This document shows, piece after piece, positions 294 through 34,493 of a stretch of 43,804 bases of DNA. Source of the stretch: Bacteroidota bacterium (lineage in GTDB: Bacteria; Bacteroidota; Bacteroidia; Flavobacteriales_E; Vicingaceae); contig JACPDX010000049.1 in assembly GCA_016183805.1 (NCBI GenBank), forward strand, positions 1-43,804. Direction: 5' to 3'. The translations under genes and the position numbers were made by a program. Position 1 is the first letter of the stretch; every line of letters starts with the position of its first letter. The notes beneath the pieces were generated by a model. The model searched no databases. It saw nothing but the letters and a program-made list of their open reading frames with translations, and was not told the DNA's origin.

Positions 294-674
294 TTATTTT
301 CTCTTATTTATTACATATATCAATGCCGAAGAAATAATACACATTACTATAGCACTAATGATAAGTGAATTTTCTTTTTGTGAAATTCCAATAATGAGGT
401 CGCCAATAAACATGACTAAAAAGAAAATATATGCAATGGTGAGCATAGGAATTGATTTTTTAAATGTTGCAACCCCAAAAATAAAACCAAGGGCAAATTG
501 TCGGGCAGCCCACATGTAAACTACGTAGTCAACGCCTTTTGCGTTAAGGTCAACTGTTTCTAAAACCGATTGCGGTGAAAAGCATAACGATACACTTACC
601 ATAAGTTCCATTAATGCAAAAAGCCCTGATACGATAAGTATCCATTTTGGTAACGATTTTTTTGTTTCTGTCAT
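294..674 (-). CDS. Small four-helix membrane protein of unknown function
   Basis: 126 residues with four likely membrane helices at about 11-32, 49-70, 75-96 and 103-122 and short polar loops. There is no signal peptide and no catalytic motif I can name. It resembles small integral-membrane hypothetical proteins common in Bacteroidota. It sits just upstream of the acetyltransferase gene and probably shares its mRNA. A TAnnTTTG box at 705-712 lies upstream on the same strand. The gene assignment is secure; the function is unknown. Confidence 0.75.
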   Translation of the reverse strand: MTETKKSLPKWILIVSGLFALMELMVSVSLCFSPQSVLETVDLNAKGVDYVVYMWAARQFALGFIFGVATFKKSIPMLTIAYIFFLVMFIGDLIIGISQKENSLIISAIVMCIISSALIYVINKRK

Positions 675-3086: not shown

Positions 3087-4457
3087 ATGCAATTCGAATT
3101 AACCAAACCATTTTTAGACGAACTCAATCTTGCTGTTGAAAGCAAGAATGAGGCTGCTGTTTTGGCTTTAATCGAACACCTGCGACCTGTAGATATTGCA
3201 GAAATTATTAATGAACAAAGCCTTAAAGAGGCTATTGCGTTTTATCAGTTTTTAACTGAAGAACAAGCTGCCGATGTGCTGATTGAATTGGATGAAGATG
3301 TTCGGGAACGCTTTTTAAACTCGTTGTCGTCAAAACAAATTGCCAAGCAGTTTATTGACAACATGGATTCGGATGATGCTGCCGATTTACTTGCCAAACT
3401 TCCTGTAGAAAAGAAGAACGAAGTCATCTCTCATATCCAAGACATTGAGCAAGCCAGCGATATTATTGACTTGTTAAACTATCCTGAAGATACTGCGGGT
3501 GGTTTGATGGCAAAGGAGTTAGTAAAAGTGGATATTAATTGGGATATAAAAACATGTATAAATGAGCTTCGCCGACAAACTCAGGAGGTAGAAAACGTTT
3601 ATACCGTTTATGTGGTGGACGATAGAAATGTGTTGCAAGGAATTATTTCGTTGAAACGATTATTACTTACTCCCGATAATAAAAAAGTTAGAGACATCTA
3701 CAACGATAAAGTAATCGCTGTAAAAGCTGATTTGAATGATGAGGAAGTAGGTCAGATTATGGAAAAATACGACCTCGTGGTTGTTCCTGTAATTGATGAA
3801 ATAGGAAGACTTTTAGGACGAATTACCATTGATGACATTGTAGATGTAATTAAGGAAGAAGCAGAAAAGGATTACCAATTGGCTTCGGGTATCTCCGAAA
3901 ATGTTGAATATTCGGATAACATGTGGTTGCAAACCAGAGCTCGATTGCCTTGGTTGTTGGTAGGTTTAATGGGTGGTATCATCAGTTCAAAGATTATTGG
4001 AACTTACGAGTCACAAATTCAAATAAATCCGGAAATGGCATTTTTTATTCCGCTTATTGCTGCAATGGGTGGTAATGTTGGAGTACAATCGTCGGCATTA
4101 GTGGTGAAAGGATTAGCAAATAAATCGTTGGGACTAAATGGAATTTGGCACAAAATTTTAAAAGAAATTTTAATAGGATTAACCAATGGGTTGGTTTGTT
4201 CGGGGTTAATTTTATTGTACAATGTTTTATTCCCTGACACAGGCGGCATTAATTGGGCTATTTCTATAACCGTTAGTATTGCCTTGTTGTCTGTAATATT
4301 TTTTGCAGGAATTTTTGGAACAGTAATTCCGCTTATGCTTCATAAGTATAAAGTCGATCCTGCATTAGCTACAGGTCCTTTTATTACCACCACCAATGAT
4401 ATCTTTGGTACCTTTTTGTACTTCTATATTGGGCATTTGTTGTATGCCGTTTTTTAA
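3087..4457 (+). CDS. mgtE: Magnesium transporter MgtE
   Basis: 456 residues, normal for the family. It has a cytosolic MgtE N-domain (about 1-125), a pair of CBS domains (about 130-255) that gate the channel according to cytosolic Mg2+, and a five-helix pore domain (about 280-456). The pore region keeps the family signature AAMGGNVGVQ and the C-terminal TTTNDIFG segment that lines the ion path. It imports Mg2+ across the inner membrane. Its last 10 codons and stop are duplicated about 3.5 kb downstream at 7965-7999, implying that something was inserted at its 3' end while the reading frame was preserved. Confidence 0.95.
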   Translation: MQFELTKPFLDELNLAVESKNEAAVLALIEHLRPVDIAEIINEQSLKEAIAFYQFLTEEQAADVLIELDEDVRERFLNSLSSKQIAKQFIDNMDSDDAADLLAKLPVEKKNEVISHIQDIEQASDIIDLLNYPEDTAGGLMAKELVKVDINWDIKTCINELRRQTQEVENVYTVYVVDDRNVLQGIISLKRLLLTPDNKKVRDIYNDKVIAVKADLNDEEVGQIMEKYDLVVVPVIDEIGRLLGRITIDDIVDVIKEEAEKDYQLASGISENVEYSDNMWLQTRARLPWLLVGLMGGIISSKIIGTYESQIQINPEMAFFIPLIAAMGGNVGVQSSALVVKGLANKSLGLNGIWHKILKEILIGLTNGLVCSGLILLYNVLFPDTGGINWAISITVSIALLSVIFFAGIFGTVIPLMLHKYKVDPALATGPFITTTNDIFGTFLYFYIGHLLYAVF

Positions 4458-4459
4458 AT
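4425..4459. repeat. 35-bp direct repeat, copy 1 (3' end of mgtE)
   Basis: Matches 7965-7999 at 34 of 35 positions; the one difference is c4448 versus g7988. It covers the codons for the final YIGHLLYAVF of MgtE plus its stop. Copy 2 lies 3540 bp downstream, and the two copies bracket the two-component system and the exported protein gene. Confidence 0.95.
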
Positions 4460-4461
4460 TT

Positions 4462-5154
4462 TCATAAATCGTTTTCCCATAAACGAAATCCATTTCCATG
4501 AACATTAATAATTTCGACAGAGGAGTCTTCTTTTAGATATTTTCTCAACTTAGCAATAAAAACATCCATACTTCTAGTAGCAAAATAGCTGTTGTCGTTC
4601 CATATTTCATTTAAGGCAAGGTCTCGGGGAACCACCTCGTTTTTATTCTGACAAAGCAACTCCAACAATTTTGCTTCTTTAGGCGAAAGTTTTTGAACTC
4701 CTTTTGTAGAAATTAATTCACGCGTTATGGCATTAAACTCAAACATTCCAAATACAAATTTTTTAGTTTGATTTTTTAACTTAGTACTGCGGTTAATTAT
4801 TGCATTTATTTTTAGTAACAAGACTTCAGTATCAAAAGGTTTAGTAATGTACTCATCGGCACCCAGTTGATATCCTTTAACAATATCGTGCTTTTGGGTT
4901 TTTGCGGTTAAAAATATGATAGGGGTTTGATTATTTATTTTTTTGATATCGCCCGCTAAACTAAAACCATCCATCTCGGGCATCATCACATCAAAAATAC
5001 ACAAGTCGAAATGTACTTTTCTAAAGGCGTTTAAACCTAATTTCCCATTCTGGCATAAGGTTACCAAATAATTACTCAGCTCCAGATAATTTTTAAGCAC
5101 TAACCCAAAATTTTCTTCATCCTCAACCAATAAAATTGAATATTTATTCTTCAT
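4462..5154 (-). CDS. OmpR-family response regulator
   Basis: 230 residues. The receiver domain (about 5-120) has the acidic pocket E11/D12, phosphoacceptor D55, T83 and K105. The C-terminal winged-helix DNA-binding domain (about 130-230) is of the OmpR/PhoB type. It is the cognate regulator of the kinase immediately upstream: the kinase stop and this ATG are 1 nt apart. Likely targets include the divergent gene at 6888, whose upstream region carries repeated TTAAC words at helical spacing. It resembles the Bacteroidota RprY group. Confidence 0.92.
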   Translation of the reverse strand: MKNKYSILLVEDEENFGLVLKNYLELSNYLVTLCQNGKLGLNAFRKVHFDLCIFDVMMPEMDGFSLAGDIKKINNQTPIIFLTAKTQKHDIVKGYQLGADEYITKPFDTEVLLLKINAIINRSTKLKNQTKKFVFGMFEFNAITRELISTKGVQKLSPKEAKLLELLCQNKNEVVPRDLALNEIWNDNSYFATRSMDVFIAKLRKYLKEDSSVEIINVHGNGFRLWENDL

Positions 5155-5155
5155 A

Positions 5156-6727
5156 TTAAGCTGGTAGTAAAATAGTAACTGTTGTTCCCTGATTAAGCTT
5201 ACTAGTTAAATTAATTTCGCCTGAATGAGCCTCGATAATGGCTTTAACATAACTTAATCCAATCCCAAATCCTTTTATTTTATGTATGTTTCCCGTTTGT
5301 TCTCGGTAAAACTTGTCAAACACCTTTTGTTGCGTTTCATTACTCATTCCTATTCCATTATCTTCTACAATAAATTCAAGGCAATTGCCATTTTGACGGG
5401 CAAATAAATTTATTTTTGGGGCTTCGTTCGAATATTTTATAGCATTGTCGATGAGATTACATAATGCATTTTGCAGATGAGTTTCGTCGGCATTTATATT
5501 CAAATGATTATCTATTTTGTTTATTGTTAAACAAGCACCAGCTGAATCAAGCTGCAGTTTCATACGTTCTTTTATTTTATTTACTAATTCAACTACATTC
5601 ACATTTTGTTTTTGAAGTACCAATTCATTTTTTTCTGCTAAAGAAGTGTTTAATACATTTTCAACCTGTTTGTTCATCCGTTTATTTTCGGTTCGAATGA
5701 TATCGGCATAATAATTTATTTTTTCTTTGTTATCAATAATTTTAGGATGTGTAATGGAATCTATTGCCAACGAAATGGTCGATATTGGTGTTTTAAATTC
5801 ATGGGTCATGTTATTAATAAAATCGTTTTTTATGTCCGATAACTTTTTCTGTTTAATCATATAATACAAGGTGCTTACAAATATGAACAAAATGATGAGT
5901 GTAAACAAAAAAGAACAAACCAGCATCAACCACATTGATTTTAATACATAATTTCTTTTGTTAGAAAAACTAATGGCCAGTTGTATAGGTAAGTTAAAAA
6001 TATTGTGTTTAAATAAATTTACCTTGTAGGCTTTGGCAGCATCCAAAAAATTGGCAGAGGAAAACTTAGACAGTATGGAATCGTGATGTAAAACAGCATA
6101 AGAAAATGGAAGTGAAATACCATTTGCCTCTAAATTAACTTGGATGATAGAATCCATATCATTGTTCTTTAGTAAATGATTAACAGGGTCGTTTATGCTT
6201 TTAAATTCGTTAATCATTTTAACCATGATGTTTCCAAACCGATTGGAGAACATCGAGTTTTCATTCTCTTGCAATAACAACGAATCAAATTGAACAATGT
6301 GCTTTACTTTTTTCAATTTGTTATTAAAATCTATCGTTTGAACATCGCCATTGATACTAATTTTCATTTCAACATCTTCATCATTATCAGAAGTAAAATC
6401 AAAACTAAAACTACTTGTTGAATCCTTAGAATCAGCAACAACACTTTTACTAACCCATTTTTTTATTTGTTGCTTTTTGGGACGAATAGAATCTGTTTGA
6501 ATAATAATGTTTGAGGTAGATTTTGCAAGTTGATTGTGTATAAAGTTAATGGATTCTTCCTCTTCCAAATCGGAAATCACATTATTTAAAGCTTCTGTTA
6601 CTAATTGATCAAATTGAGCCTCTTTTACCAGAATTCCATTATAAATCCAGTAAATCTGTACCCAAACAATACCCACCAATGAGAAACTCATTAATGCGAC
6701 TAATAAATATAATGTCCGCTTTTTCAA
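5156..6727 (-). CDS. Sensor histidine kinase
   Basis: 523 residues with membrane helices at about 7-27 and 264-287 enclosing a 235-residue periplasmic sensor of no recognisable family. The HisKA domain has NNMTHEFKTP with H309. The ATPase domain has the N box (N424, N428), G1 DNGIG (457-461), the F box FDKFYR (470-475) and G2 GFGIGL (487-492), so it should be active. It resembles the RprX group. The periplasmic stretch 107-134 is acidic and contains MKISING, slightly like residues 97-103 of the divergently encoded exported protein; this is weak. It is transcribed first in the kinase-regulator operon. Confidence 0.92.
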   Translation of the reverse strand: MKKRTLYLLVALMSFSLVGIVWVQIYWIYNGILVKEAQFDQLVTEALNNVISDLEEEESINFIHNQLAKSTSNIIIQTDSIRPKKQQIKKWVSKSVVADSKDSTSSFSFDFTSDNDEDVEMKISINGDVQTIDFNNKLKKVKHIVQFDSLLLQENENSMFSNRFGNIMVKMINEFKSINDPVNHLLKNNDMDSIIQVNLEANGISLPFSYAVLHHDSILSKFSSANFLDAAKAYKVNLFKHNIFNLPIQLAISFSNKRNYVLKSMWLMLVCSFLFTLIILFIFVSTLYYMIKQKKLSDIKNDFINNMTHEFKTPISTISLAIDSITHPKIIDNKEKINYYADIIRTENKRMNKQVENVLNTSLAEKNELVLQKQNVNVVELVNKIKERMKLQLDSAGACLTINKIDNHLNINADETHLQNALCNLIDNAIKYSNEAPKINLFARQNGNCLEFIVEDNGIGMSNETQQKVFDKFYREQTGNIHKIKGFGIGLSYVKAIIEAHSGEINLTSKLNQGTTVTILLPA

Positions 6728-6753
6728 CTGTTCTTGTATTATTTAAAACAAAT

Positions 6754-6820
6754 TTAACGTTTCAAAGTACTCGATTTCAAACTTTAACTTTTCCTTAACT
6801 TTCTTTATGAGTTTGTTAAC
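6754..6820. promoter_or_regulatory. Possible response-regulator operator: TTAAC array
   Basis: TTAAC occurs at 6754, 6784, 6795 and 6816. The start-to-start distances of 30, 11 and 21 keep all four on about the same face of the helix. The central pair, within TTTAACTTTTCCTTAACTTT, is an 11-bp tandem direct repeat, the usual geometry for OmpR-family dimers. It lies between the divergent kinase operon and the exported protein gene. Regulation by the adjacent regulator is inferred, not shown. Confidence 0.45.
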
Positions 6821-6842
6821 TATGCTTGTATGATAAGCCTTG

Positions 6843-6850
6843 TAGATTTG
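6843..6850 (+). promoter_or_regulatory. Candidate -7 box (TAGATTTG)
   Basis: An exact TAnnTTTG match 37 nt before the start of the exported protein gene and downstream of the TTAAC array. No TTTG occurs at the ideal 19-21 nt spacing, which fits a promoter needing an activator. Confidence 0.4.
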
Positions 6851-6887
6851 TAGTGTAATTTAAAGTTAAACCTAAAAAATTAAAGTC

Positions 6888-7904
6888 ATGAAAAATTTAA
6901 AAACAATATTAATTCCAGTTGGGTTATTTGCTATAATCGGAATAGGTTATGCGTTTGCCAAACCTCTTGATAAAGATGGTGATAAAAAATGCAAAATCAA
7001 AATAATTAAAAATATAAATGGCGTAGAAACAGTTGTTGATTCAACTTTTGATTGCCCTGAAGATATGAGTTGGGTACAAACTTTTCATGATGAAATGGAC
7101 GGTGATTCTATTCATAAAATGATAAAGGTAATGATGGTAGATGGCGATTCCGGAGAATTTAATTTCAATTTCGATATGAAAATGATTATTAACGGAAAGG
7201 AGATGGAGATTGAAATGGAGAAATTACAAGAACACCTAAAAAATTTACATCAACAATTGGGTGATTTGCATGATGAGAACAAAACTATTGAAATAGTAAT
7301 GGAAAATAATGACGACGGAAAAGAGCCTCATTCTATTAAAATTATTAAAAGTATTGATGATGAAGGGAATATTACCATGAAAAAAATAGTAGATGGTAAG
7401 GAAGTGAAAATAAAAGATAATGACCTACAAAAAATGCACGGTAATCATAAGATGATGTTTGTTTCTGAAGAAGGAGATGTAACTACCATGGATGGAAATG
7501 AAGCCATGACGATTGACGTGAAAGTAGAAATGGAAAACGGTAAAGAATCGAAACATATTGTAATTATTTCAAAAATTAGTGCAGAAAATAAAAATGAAAT
7601 GGCAAAAAAGATTCCTGCTATTAAAAAAGATTTGGATAAAAAAGAATTAGCCATAAGCAATTTGAAATTTAGCCCAAACCCGAATGAAGGAAAATTTGAT
7701 GTGAGTTTTAAATTAACCGAAAAAACTCCGGTAAGTGTAAAAATATTTGATATGCAGGGTAAAGAAGTTTATAACGAGAGCATTAATGATTTCTCGGGAG
7801 AATACAACAATAATCTAGATATTACCAACAGTGGAGAAGGGATTTACATCCTACAAATTACCCAAAACGAAAAAGTAAGTACAAGTAAAATAGTAATAAA
7901 GTAG
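6888..7904 (+). CDS. Exported protein with T9SS C-terminal sorting domain, function unknown
   Basis: 338 residues. A signal peptide lies at about 1-24. The middle part is highly charged and rich in Met, Asp and Lys, with loosely repeated short strands (a charged segment followed by a D/N-G turn) and one predicted coiled coil (105-130). Residues 259-338 are a type A T9SS sorting domain: FSPNPNEGKF at the start, KIFDMQGKEV in the centre and a final TSKIVIK strand. It should therefore cross the outer membrane by T9SS. It is divergent from the kinase operon and is a plausible target or sensed partner of it. A terminator follows at 7931. Confidence 0.85.
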   Translation: MKNLKTILIPVGLFAIIGIGYAFAKPLDKDGDKKCKIKIIKNINGVETVVDSTFDCPEDMSWVQTFHDEMDGDSIHKMIKVMMVDGDSGEFNFNFDMKMIINGKEMEIEMEKLQEHLKNLHQQLGDLHDENKTIEIVMENNDDGKEPHSIKIIKSIDDEGNITMKKIVDGKEVKIKDNDLQKMHGNHKMMFVSEEGDVTTMDGNEAMTIDVKVEMENGKESKHIVIISKISAENKNEMAKKIPAIKKDLDKKELAISNLKFSPNPNEGKFDVSFKLTEKTPVSVKIFDMQGKEVYNESINDFSGEYNNNLDITNSGEGIYILQITQNEKVSTSKIVIK

Positions 7905-7930
7905 TTTAGTAGTTAGTTGTTCAAAAAAAT

Positions 7931-7958
7931 CCTTCGTAAAATTTACGAGGGGTTTTTT
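7931..7958 (+). terminator. Intrinsic terminator after the exported protein gene
   Basis: Arms CCTTCGTAAA and TTTACGAGGG (7931-7940 and 7942-7951, one G-T pair) form a hairpin followed by six T residues. It lies 26 nt after the stop codon. Confidence 0.75.
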
Positions 7959-7964
7959 GTTATT

Positions 7965-7999
7965 TATATTGGGCATTTGTTGTATGCGGTTTTTTAAAT
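7965..7999. repeat. 35-bp direct repeat, copy 2
   Basis: Copy of 4425-4459. In the mgtE frame it still reads the last 10 codons YIGHLLYAVF plus TAA; the single change is Ala GCC to GCG, which is silent. Its end overlaps the stop codon of the converging deiminase gene (7994-7996), so before the insertion mgtE and that gene probably converged with overlapping stops. Confidence 0.95.
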
Positions 8000-8818
8000 A
8001 GTATTCCAAGAAATACAGTTTAATAATCCTCCACCCAAAGCCAATTCTTGACAGTTGATTTTTACAACTGTTTTAAAAAATCGCTCAAATTGTTCGGTAG
8101 CTAAATGGTTTTGCTCTTGGTTGTTAAATTGTGGCAAAAAGATGGTTTCTCCAACCTGTAAATAATTGATGTAAACACCAAAAGCAGGAGCAACATCGTA
8201 TTTGTTTTTTTGTATCCATTCTTCATCAGGAAAATAAGGAATTAGATTAATCTCTAATTGGTTTTGTTCCAAAATACTAAACAACTTTTTTTGAAATCTT
8301 TTTGGAGTTTTAGTTTTAGAGTAATCATTTACCAAGATGGTATTTTTATTGAGAAACCGAACCATTCCATCAGCATGACCAATAACATCAGCATCTTCAG
8401 TAGGAATAATAATGAGTTGTGCTTTTAATAGTTTCTCTAATTGATTCATCAATTTCACATTTCCGATACTTACGTTATTATCGAGAAAGACCCTATCAGT
8501 TAAAATAACTTTGTTGCCGAACCTTACCACATTACCACCATCAATAATACAATTAGCGTATGAATACGGAATTTTATTTTCATTACAAACCAATTTATTA
8601 TCGGTTCTAATCTCTGGCATTCCTTTTAAATAAGAGGGATGATAACGAAATAATACATGTTGTTCTTCCTCAACAGGAATTGGCATATAATCTCTACACC
8701 AAATGTCTTTAGTGTTGGATAAATAACTAAAGTTTATTTTTTGCTCCGTTAAACCATTTTCTAACTCAATGGTTAGTTTTGGGAATTGATGTTTTAATAG
8801 TGACGAGAAATAGATCAT
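7994..8818 (-). CDS. Agmatine / peptidyl-arginine deiminase family protein
   Basis: 274 residues of the Porphyromonas-type deiminase family, whose members hydrolyse guanidino groups (agmatine to N-carbamoylputrescine, or arginine to citrulline). Expected catalytic features are present: WCRD (40-43), DGGN (93-96), GHADG with H148 (147-151), and the nucleophile C268 in GGGLLNCISW. It is shorter than typical agmatine deiminases (about 350-370). The N-terminal part before WCRD is reduced, so the substrate is uncertain. The start overlaps the upstream gene by 4 nt (ATGA), indicating translational coupling. No signal peptide, so probably cytosolic. Confidence 0.85.
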   Translation of the reverse strand: MIYFSSLLKHQFPKLTIELENGLTEQKINFSYLSNTKDIWCRDYMPIPVEEEQHVLFRYHPSYLKGMPEIRTDNKLVCNENKIPYSYANCIIDGGNVVRFGNKVILTDRVFLDNNVSIGNVKLMNQLEKLLKAQLIIIPTEDADVIGHADGMVRFLNKNTILVNDYSKTKTPKRFQKKLFSILEQNQLEINLIPYFPDEEWIQKNKYDVAPAFGVYINYLQVGETIFLPQFNNQEQNHLATEQFERFFKTVVKINCQELALGGGLLNCISWNTI

Positions 8819-9564
8819 TTGAGTTTAACTTTGTCTTTTATTTGAGCCAATACGAATCTATATTTTAGATTTCGAAAGTCCTCATCTCCAGTTGTCCCTA
8901 GACCAACTCTTTGCATTGGAATGATTTCGTCCTGCTTTAATTTATCTTCGATTGGAATTAATTTAAGAAAATCTCTACTTTGAGAAATATTCTCATACTG
9001 ATTTAATAAGTGGTTTTTAAGTTTCAATGGACCAATAATTGGCTTGATTTCATCTTCTAAGGGAATAATACTTCTAATTAAAATACCACCAAAACGATTA
9101 TTATTTTTATCTCCAAAAGTTAAATCAATACCTGAATAATGAAAATACCAACATCCCATCTTGATTTGGTGTTTAGCTGAGTCATTTGGTTTGTCTTTTA
9201 TAATTTTAGAATGTATAAAATCATCTTCATGTTTCTCTTTTTCATGAAGATAAAACTCAATTTCTGCTAGTCTAAAATCTTTACGGTTTGCTCTTATTAC
9301 AAAATTGTTCATTAACTTATCTGCAATCTCTGCGAATTTTTTGGTCATATCTTTTTCTGCCTCAAACTCATTAAATAAATCTTCAATTTTTTTCATTTCT
9401 CTTTGTTTTAAATTATTTTTAATTGGGTAGATGTCATCATTTAAACCTTCATCCAAAGAAAAATTTTCTTTTTGTTTAGATAGTTCTAACTTCTTTAATT
9501 TTTCTAATTCTTCATCACCGTAAACCGTTCTGAAGAAATCTTCATCATGTTTTTTGTTGTTCAT
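8815..9564 (-). CDS. Uncharacterised protein, possibly related to methylpurine-DNA glycosylase
   Basis: 249 residues; not firmly recognised. The first 95 residues are charged and helical. Residues 98-187 run EIEFYL (101-106), H112/D115/H118, WYFHYSGID (139-147), GGILIRSI (159-166) and GPLKLKNHLL (178-187). This order echoes alkyladenine/3-methyladenine DNA glycosylases (ETEAYL with the catalytic Glu, a downstream His, a YVYxxYGMY strand, a VLLRALEP strand and GPxKLxxAL). That is a comparison from memory, so the relationship is a hypothesis. It is translationally coupled to the deiminase gene. Confidence 0.6.
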   Translation of the reverse strand: MNNKKHDEDFFRTVYGDEELEKLKKLELSKQKENFSLDEGLNDDIYPIKNNLKQREMKKIEDLFNEFEAEKDMTKKFAEIADKLMNNFVIRANRKDFRLAEIEFYLHEKEKHEDDFIHSKIIKDKPNDSAKHQIKMGCWYFHYSGIDLTFGDKNNNRFGGILIRSIIPLEDEIKPIIGPLKLKNHLLNQYENISQSRDFLKLIPIEDKLKQDEIIPMQRVGLGTTGDEDFRNLKYRFVLAQIKDKVKLK

Positions 9565-9730
9565 CTTTACAAAGTTTAAAAGTTAACAAGGTAAAGCTAA
9601 TCGCTATCATTTAATAAATTGCCATATTTTATTGGTTTGTTTTGAAAAGTTCGATATTCAATATTTATATAATTATTATAAAAATATTGTATTTTTTATA
9701 ACCTGTTTTCTCAAAAATGCAATTGCCTAA

Positions 9731-9767
9731 AAATGAAAAAAGCCGAGTGATTCGGCTTTTTTCATTT
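9731..9767. terminator. Bidirectional intrinsic terminator
   Basis: A perfect 16-bp stem (9731-9746 with 9752-9767) around a 5-nt loop, with a GC core (GCCGA/TCGGC) flanked by A6 and T6 tracts. It closes the minus-strand GNAT-LysE-Gpx operon. The 9565-9730 stretch beside it is AT-rich and I see no other element there. Confidence 0.9.
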
Positions 9768-9769
9768 TA

Positions 9770-10315
9770 TCATTTTCCTTCAATCCATTTTATAATTTCC
9801 TCATCATCTGGGAGCATTTTGGGAGAAATTACTTTTATCAAATAACCGTTTTCGTCTAATAGATATTTTTGAAAATTCCATGCTACTTCTGAATCTTCTA
9901 AACCATTTTTAACCTTTTGAGTTAAAAACTGATACACTTCATGCATATCATCACCTTTAACCGATATTTTGCTCATCATTGGAAAAGTAACACCAAAATT
10001 CTTTTTACAGAACTCAGCAATTTGTTTGTTGCTTCCTGGCTCCTGTGCTCCAAAGTTGTTGGCAGGAAACCCTACAATTACAAAATTTTTGTCTTTAAAT
10101 TTTTCATAAACTGCTTGTAATTGTTCATATTGTGGGGTTAAACCACACTCCGAAGCGGTGTTTACCACCATTACTTTTTTACCTTTTAGTGTGTTGAAAT
10201 CAAACTCGCTACCATAAAGGTCGGTTACTTTAAATTGATGAATGCTTTGTTTCATGTCTTGAGCGTTTAAAAAAGTTGGGGTAAATAATAGCAATGCAAT
10301 AATTAAGTTCTTCAT
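9770..10315 (-). CDS. Glutathione peroxidase family thiol peroxidase, exported
   Basis: 181 residues with a signal peptide (about 1-18), so it acts in the periplasm or envelope. It has the Cys-type active site ASECG with C57, plus Q92 and W146/N147 completing the tetrad. C103 in EFCKKNFGV is at the position of the resolving Cys of thioredoxin-dependent members, so thioredoxin is the more likely reductant than glutathione. It reduces hydrogen peroxide and organic peroxides. Last gene of an operon, 12 nt after the LysE gene, and followed directly by a strong terminator. Confidence 0.93.
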   Translation of the reverse strand: MKNLIIALLLFTPTFLNAQDMKQSIHQFKVTDLYGSEFDFNTLKGKKVMVVNTASECGLTPQYEQLQAVYEKFKDKNFVIVGFPANNFGAQEPGSNKQIAEFCKKNFGVTFPMMSKISVKGDDMHEVYQFLTQKVKNGLEDSEVAWNFQKYLLDENGYLIKVISPKMLPDDEEIIKWIEGK

Positions 10316-30746: not shown

Positions 30747-30807
30747 TCTCGCAGATTTCGCAGAAGTACGCAGATTAGATTTGCGAGAATTAGCGAAATC
30801 TGCGAGA
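30747..30807. repeat. 61-nt hairpin repeat, copy 1
   Basis: Perfect 15-bp arms TCTCGCAGATTTCGC (30747-30761) and its complement (30793-30807) around a 31-nt centre. It matches 34321-34381 at 55 of 61 positions. It lies 9 nt after the stop of the EnvC-like gene and ends 17 nt before the GSCFA start. Confidence 0.95.
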
Positions 30808-30824
30808 AATAATTTAATCAAATA

Positions 30825-34320: not shown

Positions 34321-34381
34321 TCTCGCAGATTTCGCTGATGTACGCAGAAACTATTTGCGAGAATTAGCGAAATCTGCGAGA
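34321..34381. repeat. 61-nt hairpin repeat, copy 2
   Basis: Same 15-bp arms as 30747-30807 (34321-34335 and 34367-34381) and a 31-nt centre differing at six positions. It lies 7 nt after the rseP stop. The 34382-34493 remainder of the gap is AT-rich with only a weak promoter candidate. Confidence 0.95.
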
Positions 34382-34493
34382 ACTAATTTAACATCATTCG
34401 TATTAACCCTCCAATGTTCAAAACACTTTTTTGAACTTATTTGTTGAGCTATTATAATGAATAGTTTTACTTGTAAGAACTAAAAATACGAAC

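Follow-up and report, generated by a model that had tools for sequence, protein, structure and literature searches.

The 43,804-nt stretch of DNA analysed here, contig JACPDX010000049.1 of a Bacteroidota bacterium in the family Vicingaceae (hereafter the window), carries a three-gene unit between mgtE, which encodes a divalent cation transporter, and a converging deiminase gene. The unit, which we call the trio, encodes a response regulator, a sensor histidine kinase and a divergent exported protein with a type IX secretion system (T9SS) sorting tail, and it is bracketed by a 35-bp repeat of the mgtE 3′ end. The reading we favour, with a probability of about 0.6, is a one-off insertion of the trio between mgtE and the deiminase gene, probably after the split from the nearest relative, through recombination that needed little or no homology and left the gene end in duplicate, with the regulator driving both arms of the unit. 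Directly observed are the corresponding junction in the nearest relative, which is unoccupied, a different and fixed site of the trio in nine genomes of another genus, the 35-bp duplication, and a set of conserved half-sites in the control region of the trio.

The two copies of the direct repeat (4425–4459 and 7965–7999, both read on the plus strand) are spaced by 3540 bp and identical at 34 of 35 positions. Copy 1 encodes in frame the last 10 MgtE residues (YIGHLLYAVF), followed by the stop codon and 2 further bases. Copy 2 is the gene end adjoining the deiminase gene and contains the last codon and stop of that gene (7994–7999). The sole mismatch, GCC in copy 1 and GCG in copy 2 as in the nearest relative, is silent, both codons specifying alanine. 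An earlier note on this DNA had described the repeat of the MgtE end, its silent difference and the deiminase stop within copy 2, and sequence comparison bears out all of this. With BLAST the alignment grows to 47 columns at 91.5% identity (4413–4459 and 7954–7999). A chance duplication, which the same note had named as a way for its reading to fail, was examined by dinucleotide shuffling of the window: 0 of 100 shuffled versions contained a direct 20-mer repeat without mismatch, compared with 15 such repeats in the real window, part of which belong to other repeats (for example 30747 and 34321). The chance expectation for 23-mer pairs in the window is ~2e-4. The repeat is thus real and not a chance match. 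A 156-base query searched against the whole assembly (109 contigs, 3.47 Mb) found the gene end in these two places only, with no third copy at E ≤ 0.001. Copy 1 also holds a terminator-like hairpin over the last mgtE codons (4432–4458, plus strand; GGCAT/ATGCC stem at 4432–4448, then a T run), which is a consensus match only. Read from the sequence, the GCC of copy 1 gives this hairpin one extra stem pair, and the GCG of copy 2 and of the nearest relative loses the outermost pair; the copy 2 region does not appear in the terminator list that includes the copy 1 hairpin.

That the arrangement is an assembly artefact seems extremely improbable. The assembly is a draft, but the two repeats are not identical, a single contig spans both junctions, and the three genes are intact and their control region is conserved. 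Misjoining at a word in common would, besides, still require a gene end next to the trio.

Comparison with relatives shows the junction without the trio. MgtE was searched for in 60 relatives and matched in 56, four of these matches (G004, G005, G016 and G042) being weak and confined to the CBS part. The family set comprises 46 genomes, the window genome (G000) and 45 others, and a search at the level of the order gave the identical 46. Within this set the genus of the window genome has three other members (G001, G002 and G003, with listed completeness of 100, 99 and 100), all of which lack the exported-protein gene. In the nearest relative, G001, mgtE (L033 9372–10736, minus strand) and the deiminase gene (8539–9375, plus strand) overlap by 4 nt with nothing between them. 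The earlier note had supposed that the two genes once converged with overlapping stops, and had pointed to relatives as the place to look for an empty junction; G001 has such a junction. The flank 5′ of copy 1 agrees with G001 at 52 of 60 positions and the flank 3′ of copy 1 at 13–24 of 60 over seven offsets, while the flank 3′ of copy 2 agrees at 54 of 60 (offset 3) and the flank 5′ of copy 2 at 23 of 60. Because copy 1 matches G001 upstream only and copy 2 downstream only, the copies enclose a block of DNA additional to the G001 arrangement. Insertion of the unit between mgtE and the deiminase gene is therefore well supported, though on one empty site.

The genes on either side are themselves conserved in G001. 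MgtE (3087–4457, plus strand; PF01769, PF03448 and CBS), the host gene with the duplicated 3′ end, is 89% identical there, and the PAD_porph-family deiminase (7994–8818, minus strand; PF04371) is 79% identical and adjoins mgtE there too. Beyond it, a 249-aa protein with no Pfam match (8815–9564, minus strand) adjoins the deiminase in both genomes, at 39% identity. A 2-hydroxyacid dehydrogenase gene follows mgtE, judged by eye, in 13 of 17 other genomes, and was confirmed by Pfam in one (G002).

Since mgtE and the deiminase gene share their stop region in G001, only an insertion that duplicates the end spares both genes. A simple insertion would harm one of them, and the repeat is therefore taken as a selected outcome that involves no dedicated recombinase. 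In the course of events that we propose, the trio would have entered between the two genes in the window lineage, probably after its split from G001, and the insertion would have duplicated the shared gene end, leaving both neighbours intact. We infer that the entry was a one-off recombination with little or no homology, which could have been template switching, homology-facilitated illegitimate recombination (HFIR) or the integration of a small circle by a single crossing-over. As a type of event, the insertion seems unremarkable.

Site-specific integration, in which attL and attR would share the 35 bp at the mgtE 3′ end as their common core, through an integrase that acted in trans or has since been lost, is unlikely. 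Known elements have flanking repeats of 12–54 bp, which in some cases contain exact gene ends (PMC4701971), and an integrase acting in trans is retained as a rival for this reason, the repeat here being 35 bp long and containing a gene end; the genome also has four PF00589 matches, one of them (C66) in a 409-aa frame. But by Pfam neither an integrase nor a transposase lies between the repeat copies, which enclose three open reading frames (ORFs) of at least 80 aa; the earlier account of the unit as a response regulator, a kinase and an exported protein lacking an integrase is thereby upheld. Only 2 bases separate copy 1 from the regulator stop codon, leaving little room for arm sites, a third copy of the site was not found in the genome, and selection on two overlapping genes accounts for the restored end without an integrase.

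The distribution of the trio outside the window bears on the same question. Matches to the exported-protein gene occur in 10 of the 46 family genomes, namely the window genome and 9 of the 14 genomes of g13, a different genus in the family, and a pattern-based scan of an 84,980-genome collection returned ten loci, the nine of g13 and one in a Marinilabiliales genome, where residues 1–52 matched weakly. All nine g13 trios share one place, with the exported-protein gene ahead of a 3-hydroxyanthranilate dioxygenase (HAAO) gene, which was called as an ORF in eight of the nine loci and whose start is visible in the sequence of the other (L122). The kinase and regulator genes stand in identical divergent order in the seven g13 loci whose contig is long enough; in three (L114, L115 and L117) the regulator gene converges on a ~341-aa gene with gaps of 4, 0 and 2 nt. 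The latter has no Pfam or NCBIfam match and may encode a tryptophan dioxygenase. In G000, G001 and G002 the site used in g13 holds the 341-aa gene and then HAAO, without a trio. Seven g13 loci have both trio flanks, the remaining two of the nine lacking the left one, and in 7/7 no exact common word longer than 11 nt was found within 400 nt on each side, a search that diverged repeats would escape.

These loci count against site-specific integration, and they bear on a more ambitious idea. With one shared g13 site, no flanking words longer than 11 nt and no integrase, a self-mobile cassette is unsupported, and we discarded it as the main explanation. The earlier note had called the unit a possible mobile sensory cassette and expected the trio elsewhere beside a copy of its insertion-site gene end; the trio does occur elsewhere, in nine g13 genomes, without such repeats. 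Of its further proposal, that a unit entered and rebuilt the gene end as integrative elements do, the entry is supported by the empty site and flanks of G001, and rebuilding by an integrative element is kept as an unlikely rival. The locus has a repeat holding the target gene end and an unoccupied site in one relative; an integrase in the unit, and the same element elsewhere with repeats of its own, were not found in the window and the seven g13 loci, respectively. As to transposons and insertion sequences, the unit has no transposase and the flanking repeats are direct, not inverted. A Xer/dif cassette gained no support from a candidate dif-like pattern, which may differ from the host's own dif: it gave 46 genome matches at up to 1 mismatch compared with 80 for the reversed control, and at that threshold had no match on the window's contig. 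The trio is stable and family-restricted, with one habitual site and a single occurrence at another.

Stability has exceptions within g13. The exported-protein gene is missing from 5 of the 14 genomes (listed completeness 82–97). In two of them, G060 (L162) and G068 (L161), all that remains between an SDR gene and HAAO is the C-terminal end of the regulator and that of the exported protein, and the trio has therefore been lost by internal deletion in some genomes. G065 and G034 have HAAO and no trio pieces within 1.5 kb of it, and G064 has no HAAO match. Such losses lend some colour to the idea that the insertion is older than the G001 split and that the trio later dropped out of G001 when the two copies recombined, leaving the junction exactly as before, an idea we find very improbable. 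The copies differ from each other at 1 of 35 positions, less than either differs from the G001 junction (30/35 identical for copy 1, 31/35 for copy 2); the probability of at most one change is 0.04 or 0.09 at assumed expectations of 5 or 4 changes, which is suggestive only. The contrast hints at an insertion that took place after the split from G001.

The order of events might also have been the reverse, with the trio at mgtE first and the deiminase and 249-aa genes entering later with the tail of a donor mgtE. We consider this rather unlikely. A GNAT gene stands in the same order relative to the trio in the window and in 8 of the 9 g13 loci, with a GPx gene adjoining it in two of these nine loci, as if linked earlier, and the deiminase is rare, matching in 3 of the 46 family genomes (one match weak and broken) and lying at mgtE in G000 and G001 only. 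Yet mgtE and the deiminase gene overlap directly in the nearest relative, a donor would need to be even nearer than G001 given that copy 2 is nearer copy 1 (34/35) than G001 (31/35), and the GPx-LysE-GNAT genes and mgtE lie on different contigs in G001 and ~59 kb apart on a single contig in G002. In favour of the insertion of the trio, the window genome shows further rearrangement: synteny with G001 breaks again at ~9724–9772, between the upstream region of the 249-aa gene and the GPx terminator hairpin (9730–9768), and 460–690 has the partial copy on contig C15 described below.

Several points weigh against a one-off insertion of the trio. The empty site is known from G001 alone, G002 and G003 lacking the deiminase, and because it is the sole empty site a precise loss of the trio there keeps some probability. 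The contrast of 1/35 with 4–5/35 is not significant (Fisher p 0.36). No donor is known, and the words of 6–8 nt shared with the g13 flanks, as possible microhomology at the joints, are no more than AT-rich DNA can give, a comparison made without a shuffle control. The common order of trio, GNAT and GPx is left unexplained by a simple insertion beside mgtE. The operator role and feedback described below come from sequence and analogy.

The trio may have been transferred between genera or have moved within its own lineage; distances suggest transfer without proving it. The ratio of G000–g13 to within-g13 distance, calculated from five genomes (four for c12), is 1.01–1.03 for the three trio genes; among reference genes it is 2.62 for MgtE, 2.39 for the amidohydrolase and 1.89 for c12, but 1.27 for SDR, 1.00 for c0 and 0.82 for GNAT. 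A tree of kinase and regulator was rejected as phylogenetic proof of transfer, as it puts the window trio on a poorly supported basal branching (ultrafast bootstrap 45 and 49; SH-aLRT 72 and 89). Foreign origin was likewise not accepted on composition, the GC content of the trio genes (0.30–0.32) being inside the 0.28–0.37 span of 13 genes compared.

On its left the inserted unit is limited by the regulator stop, within 4 nt of the mgtE stop, and on its right by the terminator after the exported-protein gene. The OmpR-type response regulator (4462–5154, minus strand; PF00072 and PF00486) is 67–71% identical to seven g13 trio regulators, and the sensor histidine kinase (5156–6727, minus strand; HisKA/HATPase, PF00512 and PF02518) is 55–59% identical to six g13 kinases; the stretch between its two hydrophobic segments, judged by eye, is taken as the sensor. 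The exported protein (6888–7904, plus strand; 338 aa) is a predicted T9SS type A cargo by its C-terminal sorting domain (residues 262–338), which scores above cutoff (TIGR04183, 53.1 bits, cutoff 23) and also matches PF18962 (Por_Secre_tail). Its gene is followed by an intrinsic terminator (7924–7958, plus strand) with a 16-pair stem and a T run. In one g13 locus (L115 9510–9845, genome G062) the exported-protein gene is separated from the conserved box by an additional ORF of 111 aa, which begins similarly (MKNLKT).

The divergent control region (6728–6887) contains four TTAAC half-sites, at 6754, 6784, 6795 and 6816, that is, at offsets of −30, 0, +11 and +32, and these offsets are identical in 10/10 trio loci. 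A tandem spacing of 11 nt is what OmpR/PhoB-type regulators bind. With up to 3 mismatches allowed, the 25-mer box at 6783–6807 has a single occurrence in the window and occurs in 0 of 100 shuffles. The box TTTAACnTTTCCTTAACTTTC matches 53 of 191 loci searched, and these 53 each cover a trio by origin. Ahead of the exported-protein gene, TAGATTTG (6843–6850) fits the Bacteroidota −7 element, TAnnTTTG. Given the conserved TTAAC tandem and TAGATTTG, the regulator probably controls both arms, binding the predicted TTAAC operator to govern its own operon and the exported-protein gene. By analogy with CpxP and CpxA, the exported protein may in turn feed back on the kinase. With regulator, kinase, divergent T9SS-tailed protein, shared control region and terminator, the unit looks like a self-contained circuit.

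A bolder version is doubtful: a portable circuit whose exported protein would consist of beta-hairpin modules related to the kinase sensor insert, so that surface protein and sensor would read, or compete for, the same ligand. Alignment of sensor and exported protein with hhalign gave a single weak hairpin similarity over 26 columns (probability 31%, P 5e-4), no more than a lead, and structure prediction gave poor models, with mean pLDDT values of 51 for the sensor and 47 for the exported protein, the latter confident in the C-terminal sorting domain only. Were it true, such a circuit would be autonomous, with its own box, promoters and terminator, and would work wherever it landed.

Other observations concern the window genome and its relatives more widely. 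In a tree of HAAO and the amidohydrolase (putatively ACMSD, only Amidohydro_2 having matched), g13 genomes G062 and G066 cluster with the genus of the window (100/100), which points to exchange between genera at that locus. Within the window, a 126-aa gene lies at 294–674 (minus strand), and 460–690 has a 95% partial copy at L147 13519–13748 on contig C15; this copy of the 5′ part of the gene is ~2 kb from the amidohydrolase gene. A dispersed, partly palindromic repeat of ~70 bp occurs at 30747–30817 and 34321–34391 (90% identical), and at 81–85% identity at ~15248–15314 of L147 (C15).

Compared with integrative elements at the 3′ ends of protein genes, the unit is alike in its direct repeat containing a gene end and in leaving the gene intact, and differs in having no integrase and in being repeat-free in the 7/7 testable loci of the same trio. 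HFIR and single crossing-over of circularised DNA are described as routes for small DNA into the chromosome, most HFIR joints having 3–10 bp of microhomology (PMC3240628). Integration of a circle would be expected to leave direct repeats. HFIR generally deletes host DNA of similar size, whereas the window compared with G001 has 35 bp duplicated and no loss seen. Literature searches on illegitimate recombination with target duplication and on gene-end attachment sites found no papers. With the unoccupied site at hand, the locus illustrates how an operon can settle between genes with overlapping ends, breaking neither.

The trio itself is a previously known type of two-component module, here with a surface-export-tailed partner; no paper on it turned up, though none of the literature searches targeted it by name or sequence. 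Its regulator is a relative, not a member, of the Bacteroidota RprX/RprY system, the best NCBIfam match being RprY at 272.4 bits, under the curated equivalog cutoff of 370. PorA of Porphyromonas gingivalis is a surface protein bearing a C-terminal domain (CTD) and acts upstream of the two-component system PorXY (PMC7712824), and the trio likewise joins a predicted CTD-bearing surface protein to a two-component system. In the available part of that account PorA, unlike the partner here, is not described as being encoded divergently next to the kinase, and PorX has a PglZ domain and works via SigP, whereas the window regulator is OmpR-type with a DNA-binding domain. CpxP of Escherichia coli and Vibrio is strongly induced and inhibits CpxA (PMC6737893); as described there, CpxRA-CpxP shares with the trio a kinase-regulator operon and a divergent exported protein. 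The tandem half-sites in the divergent region of the trio complete a Cpx-like layout, regulator binding being predicted. The partner differs from CpxP in its T9SS sorting tail and in having no CpxP/Spy-type Pfam match at E ≤ 0.001, and the feedback is proposed by analogy. A compact signalling module whose control site varies unusually little and whose partner bears a surface-export tail, the trio is a possible T9SS counterpart of CpxP-type feedback.

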